A DNA stretch of 13,429 bases, taken from positions 40,686-54,114 of the forward strand of contig UZAE01012189.1 of the NCBI GenBank assembly GCA_900617975.1, in the 5' to 3' direction. Source of the DNA: Rodentolepis nana (Eukaryota > Platyhelminthes > Cestoda > Cyclophyllidea > Hymenolepididae). This document shows, piece by piece, positions 305 to 13,339 of the stretch. Numbering within the stretch: the stretch's first letter is position 1; each line of letters begins with the position of its first letter. Under the pieces are notes generated by a model. That model worked only from the letters and a program-made list of their open reading frames with translations, did not search any database and was not told where the DNA came from. Both the position numbers and the translations under genes were made by a program.

Positions 305-565
305 TGGGGTGTGCGATAGACTTACCTCCACGTGGTGCACCCCGGGCAACGTATACTCATACGGCAAAAAAGTCTATTAACCGGCAGTTGACTTCTGACT
401 TCAAACTACCCTCACCCCATTGTATATCATATTCGACTACTTCCACAGTACTCACCTCACCATCTCGAGTTGTTTCACTTTGATGTTCCTCCTCCTCTGT
501 GAATCCTGAAGTCAACTAAAGGGCTAATGATAAGTTTCACAACGCCTGCCATTTGATATTAATTA
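305..565 (+). mobile_element. SINE copy 1, short form, with 13-bp target-site duplication
   Basis: This is a full-ended copy of the window's SINE family. It begins with the family head GGGGTGTGCGATAG and ends with the family tail (AAGGGCTAATGATAA, then the CCTGCCATTTGATAT block). It is flanked by a perfect 13-bp direct repeat, TTTTTAAGGATAG, at 292-304 and 566-578, which marks retroposition. It lacks the middle block that contains the TGTCTGTCTC and TACATCT motifs of longer copies, so it is 261 bp. An exact inverted pair AGTTGACTTC / GAAGTCAACT sits at 386-395 and 508-517. The open frame spanning 277-483 is repeat-derived and should not be read as a host gene. Confidence 0.88.
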
Positions 566-578
566 TTTTTAAGGATAG
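566..578. repeat. Right target-site duplication of SINE copy 1
   Basis: This is the exact partner of the repeat at 292-304. It follows the SINE tail directly, so the AT-rich tail and the duplication abut, as in target-primed retroposition. Confidence 0.88.
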
Positions 579-819: not shown

Positions 820-1161
820 TATTTATTTATTTATATCAAATGGCAGGTTTCATGATAGTTATAATTAGCCCTTTAGTTGACTTCAGGCTTCACAGAGGGA
901 GAGAAACATCAAATCGAAAAAAATTGAGAGGGGGGGGGGTTAGTGAATAGAGGAGTGTTTCAAAGATGTAAAAGAGACAGACAGACAGACACAAAGGCAG
1001 GGAAAAGGTAAGGTGAGTACTGTGAAAGAAGTCGAATATGACATACAGTGGGGTCCTGATAGTTTGAACTCAGAAGTCAAGTGCTGGTTTATTAACTTTT
1101 TGCCGTATGAGTATACGTTGCTCAGGGTGCACCACGTGGAGGTAAGTCTATCCCACACCCC
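820..1161 (-). mobile_element. SINE copy 2, long form, minus orientation
   Basis: Read on the plus strand this copy starts with the reversed tail (TATTTATTTATTTATATC, CAAATGGCAGG) and ends with the reversed head, GTAAGTCTATCCCACACCCC. It includes the middle block, with a (GACA)n run near 970-990 and a run of ten G at 930-939. At 342 bp it is the longest copy. I found no convincing target-site duplication, so the insertion is old or the flanks have changed. The open frames at 585-950 (+) and 940-1158 (-) overlap this repeat and are not credible genes. On the plus strand the head gives a consensus 5' splice site, AG|GTAAGT, at 1140-1147. Confidence 0.87.
930..939. repeat. Ten-base G run inside SINE copy 2
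   Basis: Ten consecutive G occur where the other SINE copies have a short C-rich (reversed G-rich) block. This is the same internal site that expanded to 25 C in SINE copy 3. Confidence 0.9.
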
Positions 1162-1724: not shown

Positions 1725-1897
1725 TATCATCGTGTCTGTTTGTCACTTTTACATCTGTGGATCACTTTTCTGCCCCCCCCCCCCCCCCCCCCCCCCCGAC
1801 TTTTCCCACTTTGATGTTCCCCCATCCTCTGTGAAGCCGGAATTCAACTGAAGAGCCAATGATATCTATCATAAAGCGTTTCATTTTATACAAATAT
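1725..1897 (+). mobile_element. SINE copy 3, 5'-truncated fragment
   Basis: Only the 3' half of the SINE is present. It starts near the TGTCTGTTTGTC block and runs through TTTTACATCTGTGGATCA, an expanded C run, CACTTTGATGTTCC, CCTCTGTGAAGC and the tail, ending near ATACAAATA. The head with its CCACGTGG motif is missing. Loss of the 5' end with the 3' end kept fits incomplete reverse transcription. I see no clear target-site duplication. The left edge is approximate. Confidence 0.8.
1773..1797. repeat. Poly(C) tract of 25 bases
   Basis: Twenty-five consecutive C lie within SINE copy 3, where other copies carry a short CCCCC block (TCTGCCCCCTCTCGAC). It is a mononucleotide expansion of a repeat-internal seed. 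Its exact length may be unreliable in sequencing. Confidence 0.95.
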
Positions 1898-2902
1898 AGA
1901 CGAATTACTTAGCAACCATTAAACATTTAGAACTGGATATGCTCAACTTACTCCTTTCAATCTTAGATAATATACCAGGGAACTCTTAAGTTACGGAACT
2001 CTTAAACTCTGAGACTCTTAGGTCCACAATGGGAAAGTCCATAAAACGCTAAATTATTCGTTCACCTATCAAATTTTAATACGGATTCAAACATCATTGG
2101 CTGGCTGACATTCAAATGTTGAACAATTTTCCCACGTATTTGAAATTTCTCATTGACATTTGAAATCGGTCAAAACTTAAGGATTCCTATCTAGTCCTTA
2201 TTTCAATCAATAAATCTGAGTTTGGAATTTACTTTTATTATTTCATGTAATTCTAAAAAATCGATTGCCGTTTAGCCAATAATTTTCAAACTGAATTGAC
2301 AAATTTCCAATTGGCATGAATTTAGAACTTTGATCAAAACTAGAAATGAAGATGAAAGAGAGATACTGAAAGAGTATTGTCCTGAAGGGAAAGTATATAT
2401 AACTCTCCTTCTTACCACGAATGGTAAGCTACAGGGTGGTTAAATGGATAATTCTCATTGGTTGCTCGGTTGATCAACTACCAATCAACTGCGGTTCCGG
2501 TGGGCTTAGAAATCAATCGCCGCCTGCGATTGGTCCATTCTTCTTCGGTCAATTGCAATAAAATAAACAGATAATGAGTGGACATTTTTTTACAAAAGTG
2601 ATCGCTTTCAGAGTTAATTAGCTTCTTTTTTTCTAAAGATTGTTTCTTGTCATAATCAGTAGGTAATTGATGAGCACTCAGGTGGAGATGCTTAAGTACT
2701 ATGACTCATGGTAATGAGAAGGCACTTATCCGGACACGAAAGTCACCAAATGACTGTTATGTTTGAGAGCTTTTCCATTAGTCACTGAAATGAAAATTTA
2801 TGAGGCTCTGAAGTTAGTAATTGGAAACTCTTTTAAAATATTCAGAGTATACCTTCAAAATACTGCAGATTATATCCCTTCTATGGCGATAAGCATACTA
2901 AA
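1898..2902. other. No gene recognised
   Basis: AT-rich DNA. A short local repetition of GGAACTCTTAA-like words is seen near 1979-2010 (the words GAACTCTTAA recur), and a TATATATA-like run lies near 2394. I see no long open frame, no repeat shared with the rest of the window, and no RNA gene. Confidence 0.55.
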
Positions 2903-2913: not shown

Positions 2914-3183
2914 GGGATTTGCGATAGACTTACCTCCACCTGGTACACCCTGGGCAACGTATACTCATACAGCAGAAAAGTCTAATAACCGGCAGTTGAC
3001 TTCAAACTACCATGACCCCGCTGTATGTCATATTTGACTTCTTCCACATTACTCGCCTCACCTTTTTATTCCCCCCTCTCTCGACTTTTTTCACTCTGAT
3101 GTTCCTTCCCCTCTGTGGAGCCTGATGTCCACAAAGGGCTAATGGTAACTATCAAAACGCCCGCCATTTGATATAAATAAATA
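2914..3183 (+). mobile_element. SINE copy 4, short form, with 11-bp target-site duplication
   Basis: The copy runs from a mutated head (GGGATTTGCGATAGACTTACC) through GGGCAACGTATACTCATAC, ACCGGCAGTTGACTTC and CTGATGTTCC to the tail (GCCATTTGATATAAATAAATA). The middle TGTCTGTCTC/TACATCT block is absent, with breakpoints different from copy 1, so the short forms look like independent deletions. The flanks CCTTGACACTT and CCTTTACACTT (one mismatch) define both ends of the element. Confidence 0.87.
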
Positions 3184-3194: not shown

Positions 3195-5439
3195 TCTCAA
3201 AAAGCATTTAAATAGCTAAATCAACATCTTGAGATTTTTGTCACATTCGTGGTGTTAATATGATTTACAAGGTATCACATCTTTCCGATAATAGGCAGTT
3301 CATCATAGTCATGAGCTTATCATTAGATTTACCAAGGCCAACCGGATTGTCTTACAAATGGGAGACTGAAACTCTCCAAGAACCACAACTTCTGTTAGTA
3401 GTTACCTGCTGAAAAGATGAAACTCAATACCCATTAATATCAATTGAGTAATTTAATGTAAAGTCTCTTCGGATCACTGGCTTTCGGTAAATTAGGGTTT
3501 CTAGTTTATCGATTTTGAGATGGGAATCAGACATTCTTTCCTTAACTGTTAGAAGCATAATAACACTTACGTAAATGCCATGTCTTAACGATCACTAGAA
3601 TTCTTGTTATTCGCTTAGACGCCTGTTAAAATCTGCTGATAAAATGAAAAAGCGTAATTGTTTGATTGAAAAGCAGGCAACTTGCAAGTATCACTTCTGT
3701 GTCATGATATGAAGAAGTAAAGAGCGTTCATTTGGTATTTGATCTGCTATTAGACCAATCAAATTCGACTCCGAAGCACTCTGAGATCAACATTTATCAA
3801 TAATTGGCTTATTCTTTTCTAACCAATTATAATGAAGCAATATCTAGAAATGGTAGTACATTTAAGCCAATTAGCTACTTTCGAGCCAAATGACATGTTC
3901 TCTCCATTTTCACTGAAATCTTAGCCAATTAAGGGAATTTATTCTCAATATTAGCTGGTAAAGATATGATACTATAATTCATAAAATGAGTACGTACCCA
4001 ACCCTGTAAATAAGTCAAAAAACGGCAAGTGAATACCACTAATAGTAAAATTTATACACGCAAAGAACCAATTGGATCAATCTTTTCACTTTTTACTCTT
4101 TGCTTAACTTACGAAATACAAAAATTAAAGGGTTTGGTTGGATAACTAAACTGGACAGTTATTAAAAACGCTATTTAGTTATTATAAGTATAAAAGAGCA
4201 GTCCGCTCTTATTCCTGATAATCGTGATAGCTCTTGCTGTGAAAAGTCAAAACTGGTCAATATGAAACCGAAGGTGATAATAAGCAAAAATTGACAATAA
4301 GTGAATACAGTAAGAATATTAATGAGAGTCGTTTATAGGATACTTAAATATTGATATGATTTCGTGGCCAAGTGCTAGAAGATGTACAACATGAACAACT
4401 CTGATCTTCATTGATTGAGTTCAAACGGTCTTTTAATGTTACCAAAGGTGTGCGTGGCCTGAAAAGGATAAGACCTTATAAGAAAATGTGAAGCCCAATG
4501 TAATAGAATACAAGAACACCTTTTGGCAGGGATGATGTGTCCAAACTTCATCAATCACTGCGAGCTAAAGATGTTGCTTAGGAGTTGGAGATAGCAATCA
4601 CACTACCCACTTCTTGTAAACAAGGTTGAAAATTGGAAAGTTGAGTTGCGTTAAAGGAGTGTTGTCACTATGGCAGTAGGGTCGTTTCCACTCCATATCG
4701 CCATTTTATGCCCCCTGTTCTTCAATTCTTATTCCATAAGGGAATTTTTATTTTGACCAGACTTTAAATTCTATTTTTTAATGCCTATTCTTCCTTCCCT
4801 CACACCCTCAATTCTCTATTGTGCTGCAGTTTTGCTTATTTTGGAAAAGCCATTGTTTCCTCTGCTTATTAGCTCATTTTAAGTCTTGTAAGTTGTGCTA
4901 CTCTGTTCTCCCAAAATCCACGAAAATTCCGGTTATCACGAGTTCATGGTTTCATATGTAGATTCCACGCTTTGAAATGTACTTGTCGTCAAATAGATAC
5001 TTTTCTCCATTACCGTGTCATTGCTAGGTGTCACCTGAAACTATTTAGGAGGTTTCTACTTTGCGATGGCAAAAAATTTTTTTCATAAGGATTTTGGTAC
5101 ATATAAACTGACTGGTTGCCTGATTAGTTAATAATTGCAGTAATAATTGAGCGAATTACCTTCCTGGATGTCAGCGTGAAAACCTAAAAATTGGTAATCA
5201 AGTGCATGGGGATAATTCTTGTGAACTTTGTCCAGATCTATCAATGACATTCTGATCACTTTTCTGACTTTTAGAATTGAGTTTTTGAGTGCTGGTTATT
5301 TCTTTCACAGTGTTATTCTTGTAAGTACGCAGTGGTATGCCAGAATTCCTCCAATTATTCCAAAATAATACTATTCACCAAGATACCTCCCAATTATGGC
5401 TATTAGTTCACAGAGTGACTAAGTGTGCCTAATCAAATG
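3195..5439. other. Long unassigned stretch without a recognised gene
   Basis: About 2.2 kb of AT-rich DNA with no open frame of useful length on either strand and no SINE, LINE or mariner similarity that I can see. The only local features of note are a TATA-box-like motif with a small hairpin at 4189-4210. It could be intergenic, or intron of a gene whose exons are too small to see by eye. Confidence 0.5.
4189..4196 (+). promoter_or_regulatory. Possible TATA box (TATAAAAG)
   Basis: TATAAAAG is followed by a short hairpin, AAGAGC-AGTCC-GCTCTT (4194-4210). About 73 bp downstream is an ATG (4262) in a reasonable context, which begins a very short frame, ATGAAACCGAAG, followed by GTGATA. That layout resembles arthropod genes with a tiny first coding exon, such as many cuticle-protein genes. 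I found neither an initiator at the expected spacing nor a convincing second exon, so this is weak. Confidence 0.2.
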
Positions 5440-5456
5440 ACCTTTAAAGAAATATA
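5440..5456. repeat. Left target-site duplication of SINE copy 5
   Basis: ACCTTTAAAGAAATATA is repeated exactly (17 of 17) at 5777-5793. It is the longest and cleanest duplication in the window. Confidence 0.93.
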
Positions 5457-5776
5457 TTTATTTCAAATGGCAGGCGTTTTGATAGTTATCATTAGCCATT
5501 TAGCTGACTTCGGGCTTCACAGAGGGAAGGTTCATCAAAGTAGCAGAAAGTCGAGAGTCAGAGAACAGAAGAGCGATTCACAGATGTAAAAGAGGCAGAC
5601 AGACATAAAGGTAGGGAAAAGGACAGATGAGTACTGTGAAAGGGGCCGAATATGACAAGCAGTTGGGCCATGGTATTTTGAAGTCAGAAGTCAAATGTCG
5701 GATAATAGACTTTTTTGCCGTGTGAGTATACGTTGCCAAGGGTGCACCGCATGGAGGTAAGTCTATCGAACACCCC
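5457..5776 (-). mobile_element. SINE copy 5, long form, with perfect 17-bp target-site duplication
   Basis: On the plus strand the copy runs from TTTATTTCAAATGGCAGGCG through TTTGATAGTTATCATTAGCC, the middle block (GATGTAAAAGAGGCAGACAG), and TTGCCGTGTGAGTATACGTT to GTAAGTCTATCGAACACCCC. Flanks at 5440-5456 and 5777-5793 are identical, which makes this probably one of the younger insertions here. The reversed head carries AG|GTAAGT (GTAAGT at 5757-5762). The minus-strand open frame at 5578-5823 is the SINE's own open frame plus flank, not a host gene. Confidence 0.93.
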
Positions 5777-6941: not shown

Positions 6942-7269
6942 AGGGGTGTGCGATAGACTTACCTCCACGTGGTGCACCCTGGGCAACGTATACTCATGCG
7001 GCAAAAAAGTCTGTTAACTGGCAGTTGACTTCTGACTTCAAACTACCATCACCCCACTGCATGTCATATTCGACTCCTTTCACAGTACTCACCTTACCTT
7101 TTCCCTGCCTTTGTGTCTGTCTGTCTGTCTCTTTTACATCTATGAATCATTATTCTGCCCCCTCTCGACTTTTGTCACTTTGATGTTCCTCCTCCTCCTC
7201 TCTGTGAAGCCCAAACTCAGCTAAAGGGCTAATGATAACTATCAAAACGCCTGTCATTTGATATAAATA
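6942..7269 (+). mobile_element. SINE copy 6, long form, inserted in mariner copy A
   Basis: This is a 328-bp copy from AGGGGTGTGCGATAGACTTA to the GATATAAATAA tail. It is close to the family consensus, with the CCACGTGGTGCACC palindrome pair and a TGTCTGTCTGTCTGTCTC run near 7113-7132. The flanks are 13-bp imperfect direct repeats (6929-6941, 7270-7282). Mariner transposase similarity is present on both sides, so the SINE arrived after the transposon. About 78 codons from the head to a TGA are open without an ATG at the start, as in copies 1 and 5. Confidence 0.9.
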
Positions 7270-7282
7270 AATATTTTAATAC
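7270..7282. repeat. Right target-site duplication of SINE copy 6
   Basis: AATATTTTAATAC is the partner of 6929-6941 with one mismatch. It directly follows the SINE tail. Confidence 0.75.
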
Positions 7283-7504: not shown

Positions 7505-7680
7505 CAGTTTGCAAAAATGAAATCATCCATTTTACATAAAATTGTTACTAAGGCCGGGAAGTGACTTGCTTACGACAGCGTTAGTGAAAGAAACAATGCT
7601 TGTCATCAAATCAGACGGCCATTGCTTTCTCTAATCCAGGTTTTGATTATCCGAAAGCTGCTATTATGTTTTTAGTAGGA
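7505..7680 (+). pseudogene. Mariner transposase remnant, copy B, part before the LINE
   Basis: One frame reads SSILHKIVTKAGK, then a stop (TGA), LAYD, and later RKLLLCF followed by two TAG codons and D. This aligns in order with the mariner pattern FL.RIVTGDEKW..YDN ... KK.LLC.WWD. The first catalytic Asp (GDE) is replaced by Ala (KAG), the Trp of EKW is TGA, and the two Trp of WWD are TAG TAG. It is thus a dead copy that decayed through point changes. The frame breaks at 7680 where the LINE begins and resumes after 10710. It differs in sequence from copy A and lies in the same orientation. Confidence 0.75.
7668..7680. repeat. Left target-site duplication of the LINE
   Basis: GTTTTTAGTAGGA matches GTTTTTGGTAGGA at 10711-10723 in 12 of 13 positions. 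The single difference turns a mariner Trp codon (TGG, right copy) into TAG (left copy), as expected from a point change after insertion. Confidence 0.85.
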
Positions 7681-7681
7681 A

Positions 7682-7825
7682 ATCTGGAAGACAAGTCTCG
7701 TACCTAACCAATGGGAAGTTGCCATAGTAATACCAGTACTAAAAAAGGGCAAAGACCCTAGCAACTTTGACAACTATAGGCTCCTCTCCCTCACAAGCGT
7801 GCTGGCTAAACTTACGGAAAGAATG
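7682..7825 (+). pseudogene. Displaced reverse-transcriptase fragment at the LINE 5' end
   Basis: One open frame reads IWKTSLVPNQWEVAIVIP, then LKKGKDPSNF and YRLLSLTSVLAKLTERM. This is the N-terminal RT region (the W..s.vP..W..A.viPi.KKGKd motif and the YRpISLtsv..K..Er motif). It precedes the endonuclease, whereas in a normal element it follows it. Its first eight codons overlap in content with 8714-8737 (IWETSRVP; 20 of 24 bases identical), so it is a diverged duplicate or comes from another element. It continues without a stop into the endonuclease segment at 7826. Confidence 0.8.
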
Positions 7826-8506
7826 GCTTCAAGCGACATCAGCGAGCATACACGCCGCAAAATAATTGACGATCCTGGTTCTGGTCACAAACCAGTCATT
7901 GCTAGTATTACCTTCGGCAGCAAAAGCATGACATAGAAAATGGCAACTAAGCTATCATGGAACTTCAAGAAGGCTGACTGGCCTAGATTCACAAACCTTT
8001 TAGAGAATGAACTTCACACAAGTCTCCTCAACTTCAACCAACATCCTGACAAACTTTGCACTGCTATCACGAATTTTATGATCAGATGTGCAAAGAAAAC
8101 TATTCCCCAAGGCAAGACTAAACACTATCGAGTGTATTGGTCTAGACACCTTGAGGAACTGAAAAGAAAGAGGGACGCCCTTCGCAACACTGCTGATCAG
8201 ACTGGAAGAACGGAAGACGTACAAGCCTGGAGACGACAACCAGCTGTCTTAAGGCAAGCCATCTTACAAGCTAAACGGTCTCTCTTCGACAAGTTCATCT
8301 CAAATATCAACTATCAAAGTGATAGCCAACGCACTTTCAAATTCCTGGGTAACCTCCAAAACAACATGGAAAGACCCAAGAAAGAACCAATAGGTTTTAA
8401 AAACAAACTGCTTACCACGGACTCCAAAATCGTTAACTGCTTTGCGAGGTTCTATTCCCACAAGCAAAAGAAAACACTTTTGTCAGAAAATCTTCAAGAG
8501 ATTTAA
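7826..8506 (+). pseudogene. LINE endonuclease C-terminus and linker
   Basis: The frame reads SSDISEHTRRKIIDDPGSGH and KPVIASI, the last block of an exonuclease-III-like LINE endonuclease that nicks target DNA. The active-site motif SDH.P is SGH here (GGT at 7883-7885), so the catalytic Asp is lost. A TAG at 7934-7936 is followed by a 188-codon open stretch (7940-8503): WNFKKADWPRFTNLLE, then CAKKTIPQGK, a basic and helical linker (RHLEELKRKRDALRNT, DVQAWRRQ) and NYQSDSQRTFKFLGNL, which connects the endonuclease to the RT in this family. A frame change at about 8504 separates it from the RT frame. The ATG at 7940 is internal to the original ORF2, not a real start. Confidence 0.85.
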
Positions 8507-9275
8507 AGATACAAGTAAGACAATTTGGTGAAATTAAGGAAGACATAGCAACACCAAATAATGTAATTACTGAACCATTTAGACCTTGCAAACTTAATGC
8601 TGCAATTAAACAGCTAAAGTGCAAAAAGTCTCCTGGTGAAGACGGTATTCATCCGGAATTTCTAATTAGAATGGGACCAAAGCCAACGAAACCATGCTGA
8701 CGCTTTTCAACAAAATCTGGGAGACCAGTCGCGTCCCTTGAGACCAACAAAATTCTTAGAAATGAACAAGCAAATTTTAGGCCGCAAATATCAACTAACC
8801 AACAAGAAATCACATTCTCCCAACACATCAAAGATTCCCTTGATGCAAGAAATACTCTTACGGCTGTTTTCGTCGATTTCAAATTAGCTTATGACTTAGT
8901 ATGGTAAGAGAAGCTAATTCTAAAACTGCCAAAGATTGGTATTAAGCATAACATGCTCAACTGGATAAAAGCATTCATTGGACAAAGATCGTGAAAAGTC
9001 AGATACGGAAATGCTCTATCAAAATCCAATCTTTTACAAACAGGTCTTCCACAGGGAGCTGTCACAAGCTGCACTCTTTTCAATGTCTTCATCAATGACA
9101 TAGCCGAATTGGTACAGACAGTCACGGACACAAAGTGTTTACTTTTTTGCAGATGATCTTGTTCTGTGATATTCCGCCCCTAAGAAAAACGCTAAGGAGA
9201 GGACAGAAAGTGCTCTTAATAGTGCACTTAAACTACTAGCAAACTGGTCTGACAACAATGGAATGGTAATCAACA
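8506..9275 (+). pseudogene. LINE reverse transcriptase (degenerate)
   Basis: This is an RNA-dependent DNA polymerase remnant. Visible motifs are KSPGEDGIHPEFL (region 0/1), LRNEQANFRP with NQQ, motif A FVDFKLAYDLVW (catalytic Asp 8875-8877), motif B TGLPQGAVTS (near 9040-9069) and motif C FADD (9146-9157, both Asp present). FADD is in a different frame from motif B. In-frame stops lie at 8698-8700, 8905-8907 and 8992-8994. At about 8737 the frame jumps from IWETSRVP straight to LETNK, with loss of roughly 50 codons of the fingers, the same region found displaced at 7682-7825. At about 9275 the thumb stops at WSDNNGMVINT and joins sequence that normally lies much further on. Confidence 0.9.
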
Positions 9276-10128
9276 CCCATTGATGCAATGCCCCTGGTTA
9301 CAGGGAGCACCACAATATGTTCCCTTATCAAAGACAAGGCCTTGATCCTATATGAGAAGCTACTGGGCATTCCCATGGATAAATTCTTCAGCACCTATGA
9401 GAATAGACCAAGACATCTGAAAACGCAATCTGGTCTAATACAGAAAGCCATAGAACTGAAGAAAGAATTACAAATCGATGACAGACCAAAAAGCCTCTCT
9501 CTATCCATGAACTCATTAGCAGACACTGAGGTAGTGTGTTGCATCAGGAAATCAAACACCCCACCAGAACAAATGCGCTCATTGGCCCTTGAGACAATCA
9601 ACGTCAACTATCCTGGAGATCAATGGCTCCAAGTCTTCACTAATGGGTCACACATAGAAAACCAAGCAAACGTTGGTGCAGGTGTCTACTCTGAGCTCTT
9701 TTCTTTTTACGCAGCTGCGGACACAATAGATCCGCTTTCGAAGGAGAAATGGAGGCTATTATGATAGCACTATGCAATTATGTTGCCTGGATACGAAATT
9801 CACCAAAGCAGTAATACTTTCGGACCCACAGTCAGCAATAAACTCAATTGGAAACAGAGAGCAACCCAAAACAGCTGAGATAAACGAATGTAGAAAACTC
9901 TATCATCTACTGAGAGAGAAAAACAAAACAGTGGTCCTACAATGGATTCCTGGTCACTGTGGCATTAAAGGCAATGAGCTTGCTGACACACTTGCTAAGA
10001 AGGGGACAACGATTTTGCAATGCATGGACAGGCCGATGTCTTTCCACACAATGAAGACCTTTATCATGAGAGAGTTCAACACCCCAAGGTGCAACAAACT
10101 TAAAGCTCGAACAAAGGAGAAACAGTAG
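9276..10128 (+). pseudogene. LINE C-terminal region with RNase H domain (degenerate)
   Basis: The domain would degrade RNA in the RNA-DNA hybrid made during retrotransposition. A 158-codon frame (9288-9764) carries PRHLKTQSGLIQKAIELK and the first RNase H motif FTNGS. The first catalytic residue, normally Asp in FTDGS, is Asn (AAT, 9642-9644). GAGVYSELFSFY follows, and then a frameshift near 9735. The next motif, GEMEAI, with a Glu at 9746-9748, is in another frame. A further frame (9772-10128) holds ILSDPQSA (Asp 9823-9825) and WIPGHCGIKGNELADTLAKKG (Asp 9985-9987), typical of class I RNase H. The left edge at 9276 is the right side of an internal deletion that removed the region between thumb and PIDAM. 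The protein is inactive as it stands. Confidence 0.9.
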
Positions 10129-10161
10129 ACAGTGGCACTCTCCGACATAGCCGACTGGTCG

Positions 10162-10221
10162 AGAATCGAAGCCGTTGCTGAGTTTAACTTTGGCCAAGAA
10201 TCGAAGCCGTTGCTGAGTTTA
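10162..10221. repeat. Direct duplication of a 25-bp unit in the LINE
   Basis: A 25-bp unit starting AGAATCGAAGCCGTTGCTGA occurs at 10162-10186 and again, identically, at 10197-10221 (period 35 bp). The duplication disrupts the LINE C-terminal frame after EAVAEF. Confidence 0.92.
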
Positions 10222-10245
10222 GACTACGTACGGACGGATTGCCTG

Positions 10246-10547
10246 GCAAAACACCTTCAAAGATTGGGAGTATACACTGGCCTCACAAATTGGGATTATA
10301 CACTCAACCCACATGCCCTCCATGTAACGTGGGAGTATACACTCAACCCACATGCCCCCTATGTAACCTAAGGAGGAAATGGAGAAGACCCACCTGATTC
10401 GGTGTCTAGCGATCAACCCACATGCCCTCTATGTAACCTACAGGAGGAAATCTGGCGAAGCACCTTCACAGATTAGGAGTATACATATGCCCCCTATGTA
10501 ATCTACAGAAGGAAATGGAGAAGACCCACTTGAATCGGTGTCCAGCC
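10246..10547. repeat. Tandem and segmental duplications of the LINE zinc-finger coding unit
   Basis: The word CAACCCACATGCCCTC or a close variant recurs at about 10305, 10344 and 10415, and a shortened form (ATACATATGCCCCCTATGTA) lies at about 10481. A second word, GGAAATGGAGAAGACCCAC, occurs at about 10374 and 10512. A third pair, CACCTTCAAAGATTGGGAGT and CACCTTCACAGATTAGGAGT, lies at about 10252 and 10461. The units are nested and differ by small indels. This suggests stepwise slippage or template jumping rather than one duplication. Confidence 0.85.
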
Positions 10548-10630
10548 TTAAAGACAACGACAGCAAGCCAGAGACATTGGGAAGCAAGAAGACAGATAAT
10601 GAATTGCTATTAATTAACTACTATATATGT

Positions 10631-10649
10631 ACCCCCCCACCCTTGGGGG
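10631..10649 (+). other. C-run/G-run hairpin in the LINE 3' UTR
   Basis: A run of C (from 10631) followed by ACCCTT and GGGGG (10645-10649) can form a short, strong stem, CCCCC/GGGGG, just upstream of the tail shared with the SINE. Whether it matters for the LINE RNA is not known. Confidence 0.4.
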
Positions 10650-10710
10650 AAGCTGAAGTCAAATTTTAAGGGCTGATGATAAATATCATAAAGCCTGTCA
10701 TTTGAAAAAA
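10648..10710 (+). other. LINE 3' UTR tail shared with the SINE family
   Basis: The LINE ends GGGAAGCTGAAGTCAAATT, TTAAGGGCTGATGATAAATA, TCATAAAGCCTGTCATTTG and AAAAAA. SINE copies end CTGTGAAGCCTGAAGTCAAC, TAAAGGGCTAATGATAACTA, TCAAAACGCCTGCCATTTG and ATATAAATAAATA. The two agree over about 60 bp with few differences, including a small stem TGATA..TATCA (10677-10688 here). In this type of pair, the shared tail is what the LINE's reverse transcriptase recognises on the SINE RNA. Confidence 0.8.
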
Positions 10711-10723
10711 GTTTTTGGTAGGA
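10711..10723. repeat. Right target-site duplication of the LINE
   Basis: GTTTTTGGTAGGA is the partner of 7668-7680 (12 of 13). It directly follows the LINE's A-rich end and keeps one of the two Trp codons of the mariner WWD motif. Confidence 0.85.
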
Positions 10724-11165: not shown

Positions 11166-11765
11166 CTTACCGGTAAACACCAGCTCCATCTATACTAATG
11201 CATTCTAACGCTTTTAGATTTTCTAAGGTTGAAAACTGAATTAGTTGAACTCTAAAGGAGTGACAGATAATTGTGAGCGAATTCAAATCAGACTTGATGA
11301 GTGCACAACGGTGTTATTGCTGAACAAAGAAATCTCATGAGTATTCAGACAGACTCAAAGGTGCGGCCGTGCTGCTTGTTGCGTAGGTAGCAAGTGATGT
11401 TATGATCGTAGAGACTTCTCAGCCAGGCACCAATCAATAATCCCACCATTGTGTAGTAAACCCTTCAGTGTGTTCTACAGACTATGCTCCTTGTCTGTAG
11501 GCCACGCCAAACGTTTGTTTTTTCTACGCTGTTGAGGTAAAGTATTTAAACCTGGGATCCATTCTAAGCTAAACTGGAAGAACTTGCCATAGAGATATTA
11601 TTGAGCATGACCCAGGGCTTGATAGTGCAGCAGCGAACCCCGCCACAAACTTATACTCGAAGTTCAAGTTAAAATGAGCCAGAAGCAAGCATAAATTATG
11701 AATCATTTTACTATAAATTAATTCTACATTCTCTAATTCATTAAATATGTATCAATTAAAATAAG
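11166..11765. other. Unassigned DNA between mariner copy B and the minus-strand exon
   Basis: I recognise no protein-coding frame here. A hairpin followed by a palindrome and a T run is listed separately. Downstream of the exon's stop (reading the minus strand from 11765 toward 11600) I see no AATAAA or ATTAAA, so the poly(A) signal of that gene is either a variant or further away. Confidence 0.5.
11475..11523 (+). other. Hairpin, palindrome and T6 run (possible small structured RNA end)
   Basis: CTACAGAC (11475-11482) and GTCTGTAG (11493-11500) are exact inverse complements around a 10-base loop. They are followed by the 10-bp palindrome CAAACGTTTG (11508-11517) and six T (11518-11523), which is enough to stop RNA polymerase III. 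No A or B box is evident upstream at a standard spacing. It may be chance. Confidence 0.25.
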
Positions 11766-12092
11766 CTAATTGGCTATTTTCATCTGAGTATCCGCAGGAT
11801 TTTTCACTTTGGCCTCTTCAACAGGCGGATCCTTTTGATTTTCCTCCATCACTTCTCCACCTTCGACTTCAATTTTCTTAGATTCCAAAAACTCCTTCAT
11901 CTTACGCACATCTCTCCCGAGGTCTTCCTTGCCAACGAGGGTTGTCAGTTCAAAGATCTCACTCATGGCATCGAAGGTCTGCTGCATCAAATTTCCAGCG
12001 TCAGCAGTAGTAAGGCCTTCCGTTAGAATTGGTTTCAGAATGTAGACACCATAGGTAGCTACAATATTGGAAGAGGTGCAGGCAATAACGGA
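11766..12092 (-). CDS. Terminal coding exon of an unidentified gene (108 codons plus stop)
   Basis: On the minus strand the frame is open from a splice acceptor to TAG (11766-11768). It reads SVIACTSSNIVATYGVYIL, then KPILTEGLTTADAGNLMQQ, TFDAMSEIFELTTLVGKE, DLGRDVRKMKEFLESKK and IEVEGGEVMEENQKDPPVEE, ending MKIAN. The first ~70 residues look like folded helical protein. The last ~35 are acidic and charged, as in a flexible tail. It differs from the rest of the window in balanced composition and lack of repeats, and it has a plausible intron boundary, so I think it is host coding sequence. The Met often taken as a start (near 11985) is probably internal. I do not recognise the family. Upstream exons would lie beyond 12100 toward the right edge or outside the window. 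The antisense frame at 11835-12026 is a shadow. Confidence 0.55.
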   Translation of the reverse strand, partial: SVIACTSSNIVATYGVYILKPILTEGLTTADAGNLMQQTFDAMSEIFELTTLVGKEDLGRDVRKMKEFLESKKIEVEGGEVMEENQKDPPVEEAKVKNPADTQMKIAN

Positions 12093-12112
12093 CTGTTAAA
12101 CAGAGTGCGGGA
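12093..12112 (-). other. Predicted 3' splice site (acceptor) of the terminal exon
   Basis: Reading the minus strand, CCCGCACTCTGTTTAACAG runs into the exon that begins TCC GTT ATT. This is a pyrimidine-rich tract ending in CAG. An in-frame TAA (12096-12098) just inside the presumed intron means the frame cannot simply continue upstream, which supports a splice boundary here. Confidence 0.5.
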
Positions 12113-12741: not shown

Positions 12742-13056
12742 TTTTATTTATTTATTTCGAATGGCAGGCATTTTGATAGTTATCATTAGCCCTTAGCTGA
12801 CTTCACAGAGGGGAGAAACATCGAAGTTAGAAAAATTCAAGAAGGTAGACCGAAGAGTGATTTACAGATGTAAAAGAGACGGGCACAATGATAGTGAGTT
12901 GGGTAAGGTGAGTATTGTAGAAGTGGCCGACTATGTCATACAGTGAGGTCATGGTAGTTAGAAGTCAGAAGTCAACTGCCGGTCAATAGACTTTTTTGCC
13001 GTATGAGTATATGTTGCCCAGTATTCACCACGTGGAGGCAAGTCTATAGCACACCC
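12742..13056 (-). mobile_element. SINE copy 7, long form, minus orientation
   Basis: On the plus strand the copy runs from TTTTATTTATTTATTTCGAA and TGGCAGGCATTTTGATAGTT through the middle block (GATGTAAAAGAGAC) and AGACTTTTTTGCCGTATGAG to the reversed head, which ends CACACCC. The splice-donor-like site of the head is mutated here (GCAAGT instead of GTAAGT). A few bases are lost in the 3' region (CCCTTAGCTGACTTCACAGA). The flanks are AT-rich and give no reliable target-site duplication. Confidence 0.87.
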
Positions 13057-13116
13057 AATAAAAATAATTAAAATTAAACATATTGGTGACTTTCATGTCT
13101 ACTTAAATAATAACAG

Positions 13117-13129
13117 TAGGTGTGAAATT
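13117..13129. repeat. Left target-site duplication of SINE copy 8
   Basis: TAGGTGTGAAATT is repeated exactly at 13340-13352. Confidence 0.9.
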
Positions 13130-13339
13130 TATTTATATCAAATGGCAGGCGTTTTGATAGTTATCATTAGCCCTTTAGTGGACTCCAGGCTCTACAGAGG
13201 GGAAGGAGCATTTGTCAAATATGACATACAGCGGAGTCATGGTAGTTTGAAGTCAACTGCCGGTTAATAGACTTTTTTGCTGTATGAGTATACGTTGCTC
13301 AGGTTGCACCACGTGGAGGTAAGTCTATCGCATACCCCA
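13130..13339 (-). mobile_element. SINE copy 8, short form, with perfect 13-bp target-site duplication
   Basis: At 210 bp this is the shortest full-ended copy. It runs from TATTTATATCAAATGGCAGG to GTAAGTCTATCGCATACCCC. The region between GGGGAAGGAGCATTTG and TCAAATATGACATACAGCGG is deleted, removing the C-rich and TGTCTGTCTC blocks. Identical flanks TAGGTGTGAAATT (13117-13129, 13340-13352) define its ends. The plus strand again carries AG|GTAAGT (GTAAGT at 13319-13324). It lies only 73 bp from copy 7 in the same orientation. Confidence 0.92.

Follow-up and report, generated by a model that had tools for sequence, protein, structure and literature searches.

The window, by which we mean the whole 13,429-nucleotide stretch analysed, corresponds to bases 40686–54114 of a contig in the 107.1-Mb assembly (4701 contigs) of Rodentolepis nana (Hymenolepis nana, the dwarf tapeworm). 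It carries a LINE copy together with eight copies of a short element, the number that the first-pass annotation had counted under the name of SINE; seven of them keep their 5′ end and one is 5′-truncated (Table 1). We refer to the short elements as SIDEs, a term whose basis is given below. Within the LINE copy, a reverse transcriptase (RT) piece at 7681–7826 is followed by the endonuclease end, a linker, RT, RNase H and a CCHC-like end, and the last open reading frame stops at 10611–10613. In the best-preserved SIDE copy, an unrelated middle at ~7042–7195 is followed by the tail at ~7205–7260 and then by ATATAAATAAATATT. SIDE copy 3 has a run of ~20 or more C at 1774–1798, where the other copies are C-rich, and at another locus (L049, C4449:11788–12413) two SIDE copies lie tail to tail with a single N between them, through either joining during assembly or nested insertion. 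On the minus strand of the window, an open gene-like stretch at 11760–12100, whose frame by eye ends in ..KNPADTQMKIAN, may be a host gene's final exon.

Table 1. Elements and element parts in the window, in order of position (TSD, target-site duplication; RF02682, Rfam model of the HDV-like ribozyme).
Feature	Position	Strand	Basis or remarks
SIDE copy 1, TSD TTTTTAAGGATAG	292-304 and 566-578	+	printed flanks
SIDE copy 1	306..565	+	ribozyme motif 306-377; RF02682 47.1 bits (gathering score 44); strict descriptor
SIDE copy 2	824..1161	-	ribozyme motif 1161-1090; RF02682 39.3 bits
SIDE copy 3, 5′-truncated	1733..1900	+	repeat families D9, D15; no ribozyme match
SIDE copy 4	2914..3183	+	degenerate ribozyme motif 2914-2985; RF02682 24.4 bits, E 0.55
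SIDE copy 5	5452..5776	-	ribozyme motif 5776-5705 (Rfam); TSD TATATTTCTTTAAAGGT
SIDE copy 6, best preserved	6943..7275	+	ribozyme motif 6943-7014; RF02682 42.2 bits; strict descriptor
LINE TSD, 5′ copy GTTTTTAGTAGGA	7668..7680	+	12/13 bases match 10711-10723
LINE copy, 5′-truncated and rearranged	7681..10704	+	open reading frames; RNase H by Pfam; alignment with other copies
LINE 3′ tail common to SIDE copies	10649..10704	+	tail alignments, locus comparison
A6 terminus of LINE copy	10705..10710	+	sequence; A-run ends in 7/39 LINE tails
LINE TSD, 3′ copy GTTTTTGGTAGGA	10711..10723	+	printed flanks; directly 3′ of A6
SIDE copy 7	12745..13057	-	ribozyme motif 13055-12986; RF02682 36.2 bits
SIDE copy 8, internally shortened	13127..13339	-	ribozyme motif 13336-13267; RF02682 27.1 bits

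Overlapping copies from the assembly give an estimated LINE length of ~3.6 kb. Pfam domains Exo_endo_phos_2, RVT_1 and RNase_H were identified on separate open pieces: a 588-aa frame free of N (L092) contains the endonuclease and the start of the RT, with RVT_1 just below the cut-off, a second piece (P0057) matches the RT far over the cut-off, and a third (L034) encodes 477 aa with RNase H. A match to zf-RVT, corresponding to an Ingi-type zinc-finger-like end, was weak (E 0.085). In PDB, the LINE protein matched an RNA-directed DNA polymerase chain and LINE-1 ORF2 proteins best and R2 less strongly; the relatives found by protein search include Hymenolepis microstoma proteins, and no named RT clade references were among the matches.

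Six LINE copies with both ends were recovered (L089, L090, L092, the joined F027, F032 and F036), all below the estimated full length, and none of the seven copies with a 5′ end is intact, each being truncated, internally deleted or interrupted by N. Single Ns are present in L089, F036, F032, F027 and L091, and a run of 751 N in L090; because single Ns often sit where sequence is missing, as also in L038, the assembly seems to have lost repeat stretches, and much of the shortening of LINE copies may be an assembly effect. We therefore dropped the idea that the shortened copies form an internal-deletion series, as most of them have an N at the break or close to it. Interior jumps free of N do exist in L092, where the early RT runs directly into the tail, in F027 (near 4030) and in F032 (near 4977), indicating that interior loss with both ends kept does occur. 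This weakened the evidence from internal deletions and left our confidence in the main interpretation unchanged, since the latter is independent of them. The L092 junction (reverse strand, ~1952) resembles an intermediate towards a SIDE. The window copy itself is rearranged at its 5′ end: the RT piece at 7681–7826 has been placed first with its orientation unchanged, and elsewhere (F019, F027, F032, L091, L092) it lies 3′ of the stretch matching ~8500–8738. Internal tandem duplications (families D12, D13, D16, D17 and D19) occupy 10156–10550, in the C-terminal coding part, and the listed matches to the LINE 3′ query skip parts of them.

The first-pass annotation had proposed that the end of the LINE 3′ untranslated region aligns with the 3′ ends of the short elements, and this was confirmed at the place proposed. 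We compared commonest-base strings built from 39 LINE tails (GAAGCTGAAGTCAAAGTTTAAGGGCTAATGATAAATATCATAAAGCCTGCCATTTG) and 93 short-element tails (TGAAGCCCGAAGTCAGCTAAAGGGCTAATGATAACTATCAAAACGCCTGCCATTTG), with 5 additional unclassable tails excluded, and obtained an alignment score of 35 over 56 nt ending in CATTTG, whereas 1000 shuffles averaged -8.3 and never exceeded 6, on which grounds chance similarity was rejected. The tail held in common is thus specific and goes beyond simple repeats. LINE relatives lacking the tail had been named beforehand as the observation that would count against the pairing, and they were searched for with a query that excludes the tail (window 9600–10560; best 40 of 1782 candidates scored, 30 loci taken). 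The tail was present at 29 of these 30 LINE 3′ loci, the window copy counted, with 82–100% identity, and the sole tail-less locus (L038) has an N immediately 3′ of the open reading frame. The possibility that a truncated SINE had by chance come to adjoin a single LINE copy at its 3′ end was rejected on this count: the shared tail is the genuine 3′ end of the LINE and no stray SINE. The first-look candidates in the assembly numbered 6,322 for the SIDE query, 1,782 for the LINE 3′ query and 2,551 for the LINE 5′ query, values that are unscored and overlapping and do not represent copy number.

A difference between the terminal units, A6 on the LINE and AAATAAATA on the SINEs, had been put forward as a point to explain. 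The window copy does end in A6, but this is a minority form among LINE ends: when ends were classed by our own regular expressions, 25 of the 39 LINE ends were AAAT-type, 7 were A-runs and 7 were other, with 68, 1 and 24, respectively, among the 93 short-element ends. Because most LINE ends are AAAT-type, the puzzle dissolves, and an A6/AAATA barrier between LINE and SINE was rejected by these counts. The window LINE is flanked by a TSD matching at 12 of 13 bases, which shows that the tail and A6 form the true end of one insertion.

Outside the tail, the two elements had been described as unrelated, which is true only of the 5′-truncated window copy. Seven LINE copies with a preserved 5′ end were examined, and their first 70–97 nt match the short element, the LINE starting with GGGGTGCGCGATAGACTTACCTCCACG.. 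and the short element with GGGGTGTGCGATAGACTTACCTCCACG..; the common 5′ end had been missed because the window LINE is 5′-truncated. Among the best 40 of 2551 candidates for the LINE 5′ query, a set that contains the query's own copy, 39 begin no more than 4 nt from the query start and the remaining one at nt 12, although taking only the best-scoring candidates favours complete 5′ matches. The LINE boundary is sharp, with an identity of 0.92–1.00 at positions +1 to +12 and 0.33–0.67 at -12 to -1 (24 copies), and the boundary of the short element is likewise marked (0.85–1.00 inside versus 0.31–0.61 upstream; 59 of 74 copies used).

The SIDE (~330 nt) is accordingly made up of ~70–97 nt of the LINE 5′ end, a middle of ~150 nt and ~56 nt of LINE tail, so that both of its ends are held in common with an autonomous LINE. 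Its middle (nt 98–240) had no match in seven LINE copies searched by BLAST at E 1e-5, six of which hold N, and no Rfam match. When the middle was used as a query, 27 of the best 40 among 3387 candidates fell inside whole-SIDE matches; of the remaining 13, a same-strand ribozyme motif was found in 12 (not L094) and a same-strand tail in 11 (not L100, which is cut by the contig start, or L105), the tail of L101 being partial and displaced, and 10 have both.

These observations bear directly on the kind of pair that had been proposed, namely a stringent LINE-SINE pair in which a tRNA-type SINE, transcribed by RNA polymerase III (Pol III), has captured only the LINE 3′ tail. The common tail, the TSDs described below and a B-box-like match of 9 of 11 bases at SINE position ~125, in one of the two copies tested, would all suit such a pair, but the first 70–97 nt are also common with the LINE, and the window gave no match to tRNA or to any other RNA family transcribed by Pol III. 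The A and B boxes were at chance level in the two copies, the B-box score being reached in 55 and 284, and the A-box score in 489 and 484, of 500 shuffles each. A Pol III head with A and B boxes, as in tRNA-, 5S- or 7SL-type SINEs, is thus not found, and a tRNA or other Pol III origin of the SIDE was rejected. The picture of a SINE with the LINE tail on an otherwise unrelated body therefore went unsupported, because the short element carries the LINE 5′ end and an HDV-like motif and has no Pol III match, and we judge this type of pair very unlikely. The short element is most plausibly a SIDE- or NARTc-like derivative, not a tRNA-type SINE.

The shared 5′ sequence fits the HDV-like ribozyme family, the predicted motif beginning at the first base of the element. 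Rfam model RF02682 matched all seven window SIDE copies keeping a 5′ end (E<=1), one above the gathering score of 44 and the others at 24.4 to 42.2 bits, and 16 of 20 LINE 5′-end loci at E<=0.1, where the best score was 40.2 bits and none exceeded the gathering score. The motif has the double-pseudoknot layout with a candidate catalytic C: P1 pairs nt 1–7 with 32–38, starting with a G.U wobble, P2 pairs nt 11–18 with 65–72, P3 pairs nt 19–21 with 29–31, P1.1 pairs CC(23,24) with GG(39,40), and P4 pairs nt 45–49 with 54–58. Helix nomenclature follows the HDV literature, as do the roles assigned to the G.U pair and to the putative catalytic C (nt 60).

Across 99 copies (74 SIDE, 24 LINE and 1 unclassable, which, like the 5 unclassable tails, was omitted from group counts), pairing was kept in 2297 of 2452 cells (93.7%). 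When the partners were slid by 1–3 nt, 31–50% of cells paired, a comparison that favours the structure because it was drawn from the same sequences. The putative catalytic C is present in 93 of the 99 copies. One-sided changes comprised 86 pair-keeping and 115 pair-breaking in SIDEs, and 14 and 33 in LINEs; two-sided changes were limited to SIDEs (3 kept, 4 broken), with none in LINEs. Since the changes are mostly one-sided decay and few are two-sided, covariation lends weak support, and the case for a candidate ribozyme is built on the fit of the motif and on its position. Every pair and the catalytic C are intact in a minority of copies (14 of 74 SIDE and 4 of 24 LINE). A strict descriptor of the motif geometry, fitted to the element, found only the window copies at 306 and 6943, i.e. 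two of the seven copies with a 5′ end and none of the four minus-strand copies, and had no match in 537,160 shuffled bases.

Exact TSDs of at least 10 bp, ending within 3 nt of the first base of the element (G1), flank 21 of 67 SIDEs, the other 46 having none, and a swapped-flank control gave a mean of 0.08 and a maximum of 1; of 70 distinct SIDEs and 6 LINEs in all, 3 and 1, respectively, lay too close to a stretch end to be counted. Together with the fixed 5′ junctions, these TSDs point to spread of the SIDE by target-primed reverse transcription (TPRT). Three of five LINEs have exact TSDs of at least 10 bp, one of which is uninformative because it lies inside an AT microsatellite; in the uncounted LINE (L090), a TSD is visible by eye. 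TSDs of at least 8 bp abut G1 exactly in 11 of 27 SIDEs and lie at most 3 nt away in the others, a limit set by the test. Because TSDs adjoin G1, the predicted cut site coincides with the element end as far as this can be read.

An alternative view of the 5′ block is that it represents a DNA promoter module like trypanosome Pr77, in which ribozyme activity has been lost or is incidental. Broken pairs in many copies would agree with this, and Pr77 is itself described as both promoter and ribozyme (PMC4035085), but the double-pseudoknot anatomy remains recognisable in most pairs, the catalytic C is retained as noted above, and the TSDs of at least 8 bp adjoin G1 exactly or within the tested range. 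We regard a promoter module as an improbable account of the block.

We also considered whether SINE copies merely sit at LINE ends through nested insertion or assembly artefacts. SINEs are dense: the loci retrieved with the LINE or LINE-tail queries total 135,786 bases and contain 20 SIDE-type 5′ ends. Single Ns also reveal breaks in the assembly within LINE copies. Against this, the 3′ junction is identical at all but one of the 30 LINE loci, the 5′ start is nearly invariant among the best 40 of 2551 matches, and TSDs surround whole LINEs; the fixed junctions largely refute this explanation, to which we assign a negligible chance.

Taken together, a LINE with endonuclease, RT and RNase H, and a short element keeping both ends of that LINE, very probably constitute a ribozyme-headed LINE/SIDE pair in which the LINE mobilises the SIDE. 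The proposal that this LINE is the likely driver of the short family is supported; the tail belongs to the LINE, and TSDs are found on both element types. The LINE carries an HDV-like ribozyme motif at its start and the ~56-nt 3′ tail with AAAT or A repeats at its end, and the SIDE carries both of these ends around its ~150-nt middle. The ribozyme would cut read-through transcripts of either element exactly before G1, releasing RNA whose 5′ end is correct and making an internal Pol III promoter unnecessary. The LINE RT would then recognise the common tail, including its TGATA..TATCA stem, in either RNA, in trans in the case of the SIDE, and copy the RNA into nicked target DNA, producing TSDs beside G1. 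As to the direction of descent, the SIDE would derive from the LINE, not the LINE from the SIDE.

The closest anatomical description is that of the SIDEs defined by Eickbush and Eickbush, which combine a ribozyme, an unrelated centre and a LINE 3′ end and are not Pol III elements (PMC3414825). R2Dwi_SIDE of Drosophila resembles the tapeworm element in having a 5′ HDV-like ribozyme and a LINE 3′ end around an unrelated centre, which measures 197 bp there and ~150 nt here, within total lengths of 529 bp and ~330 nt, respectively (PMC3414825). R2 SIDEs spread by LINE machinery and not by Pol III, as is also predicted for the tapeworm SIDE, and they occupy 28S rDNA, where they depend on cotranscription with the rRNA (PMC3414825); unlike them, the tapeworm SIDE is dispersed, present in many copies and flanked by TSDs of up to 17 bp. 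In trypanosomes, NARTc and RIME are truncated versions of L1Tc and ingi, dispersed LINEs with endonuclease, RT and RNase H that have a 77-nt 5′ ribozyme block in common with their short derivatives (PMC4035085). The tapeworm pair, likened to these by anatomy, differs in its animal host, its specific 56-nt tail and its AAAT-type ends. Animal retrozymes are likewise non-autonomous non-LTR elements with self-cleaving RNA, but they are of the hammerhead type and are found as circular RNAs (PMC7229834), whereas the tapeworm motif is a predicted one of HDV type at the 5′ end of the element.

LINEs account for 1% of the H. microstoma genome assembly, and 14.8% of its repetitive sequence is unclassified; a term search found 'SINE' absent from the main text of that paper (PMC7653826). 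Among the papers listed by searches of open-access literature, titles and the starts of abstracts described no tapeworm element of the ribozyme-headed kind, and these searches gave no papers on a hepatitis delta ribozyme in a tapeworm or on a Rodentolepis nana retrotransposon. Stringent pairs such as UnaL2 and UnaSINE involve a SINE with a tRNA-type Pol III head. That pair resembles the tapeworm one in its common 3′ tail, small stem and short terminal repeats; the tapeworm SIDE is unlike UnaSINE in that its head is the LINE's own 5′ end.

These results identify the LINE that probably drives an abundant repeat of a human parasite and replace the label 'SINE' with a testable mechanism. The range of ribozyme-headed short retroelements would thereby extend to tapeworms, and the pair provides a natural system for testing which portions of a LINE RNA are enough for mobilisation in trans. 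We incline slightly towards the more general reading that an animal LINE, dispersed and outside rDNA, has exactly two modules, an HDV-like ribozyme and a 56-nt tail, in common with a short partner of high copy number, and that self-cleavage and tail recognition would be all that mobilisation in trans requires. If this two-module reading is true, the pair would be the equivalent, in a flatworm, of L1Tc/NARTc in trypanosomes, possibly of independent origin, and the 'SINEs' of R. nana would spread without any Pol III promoter.
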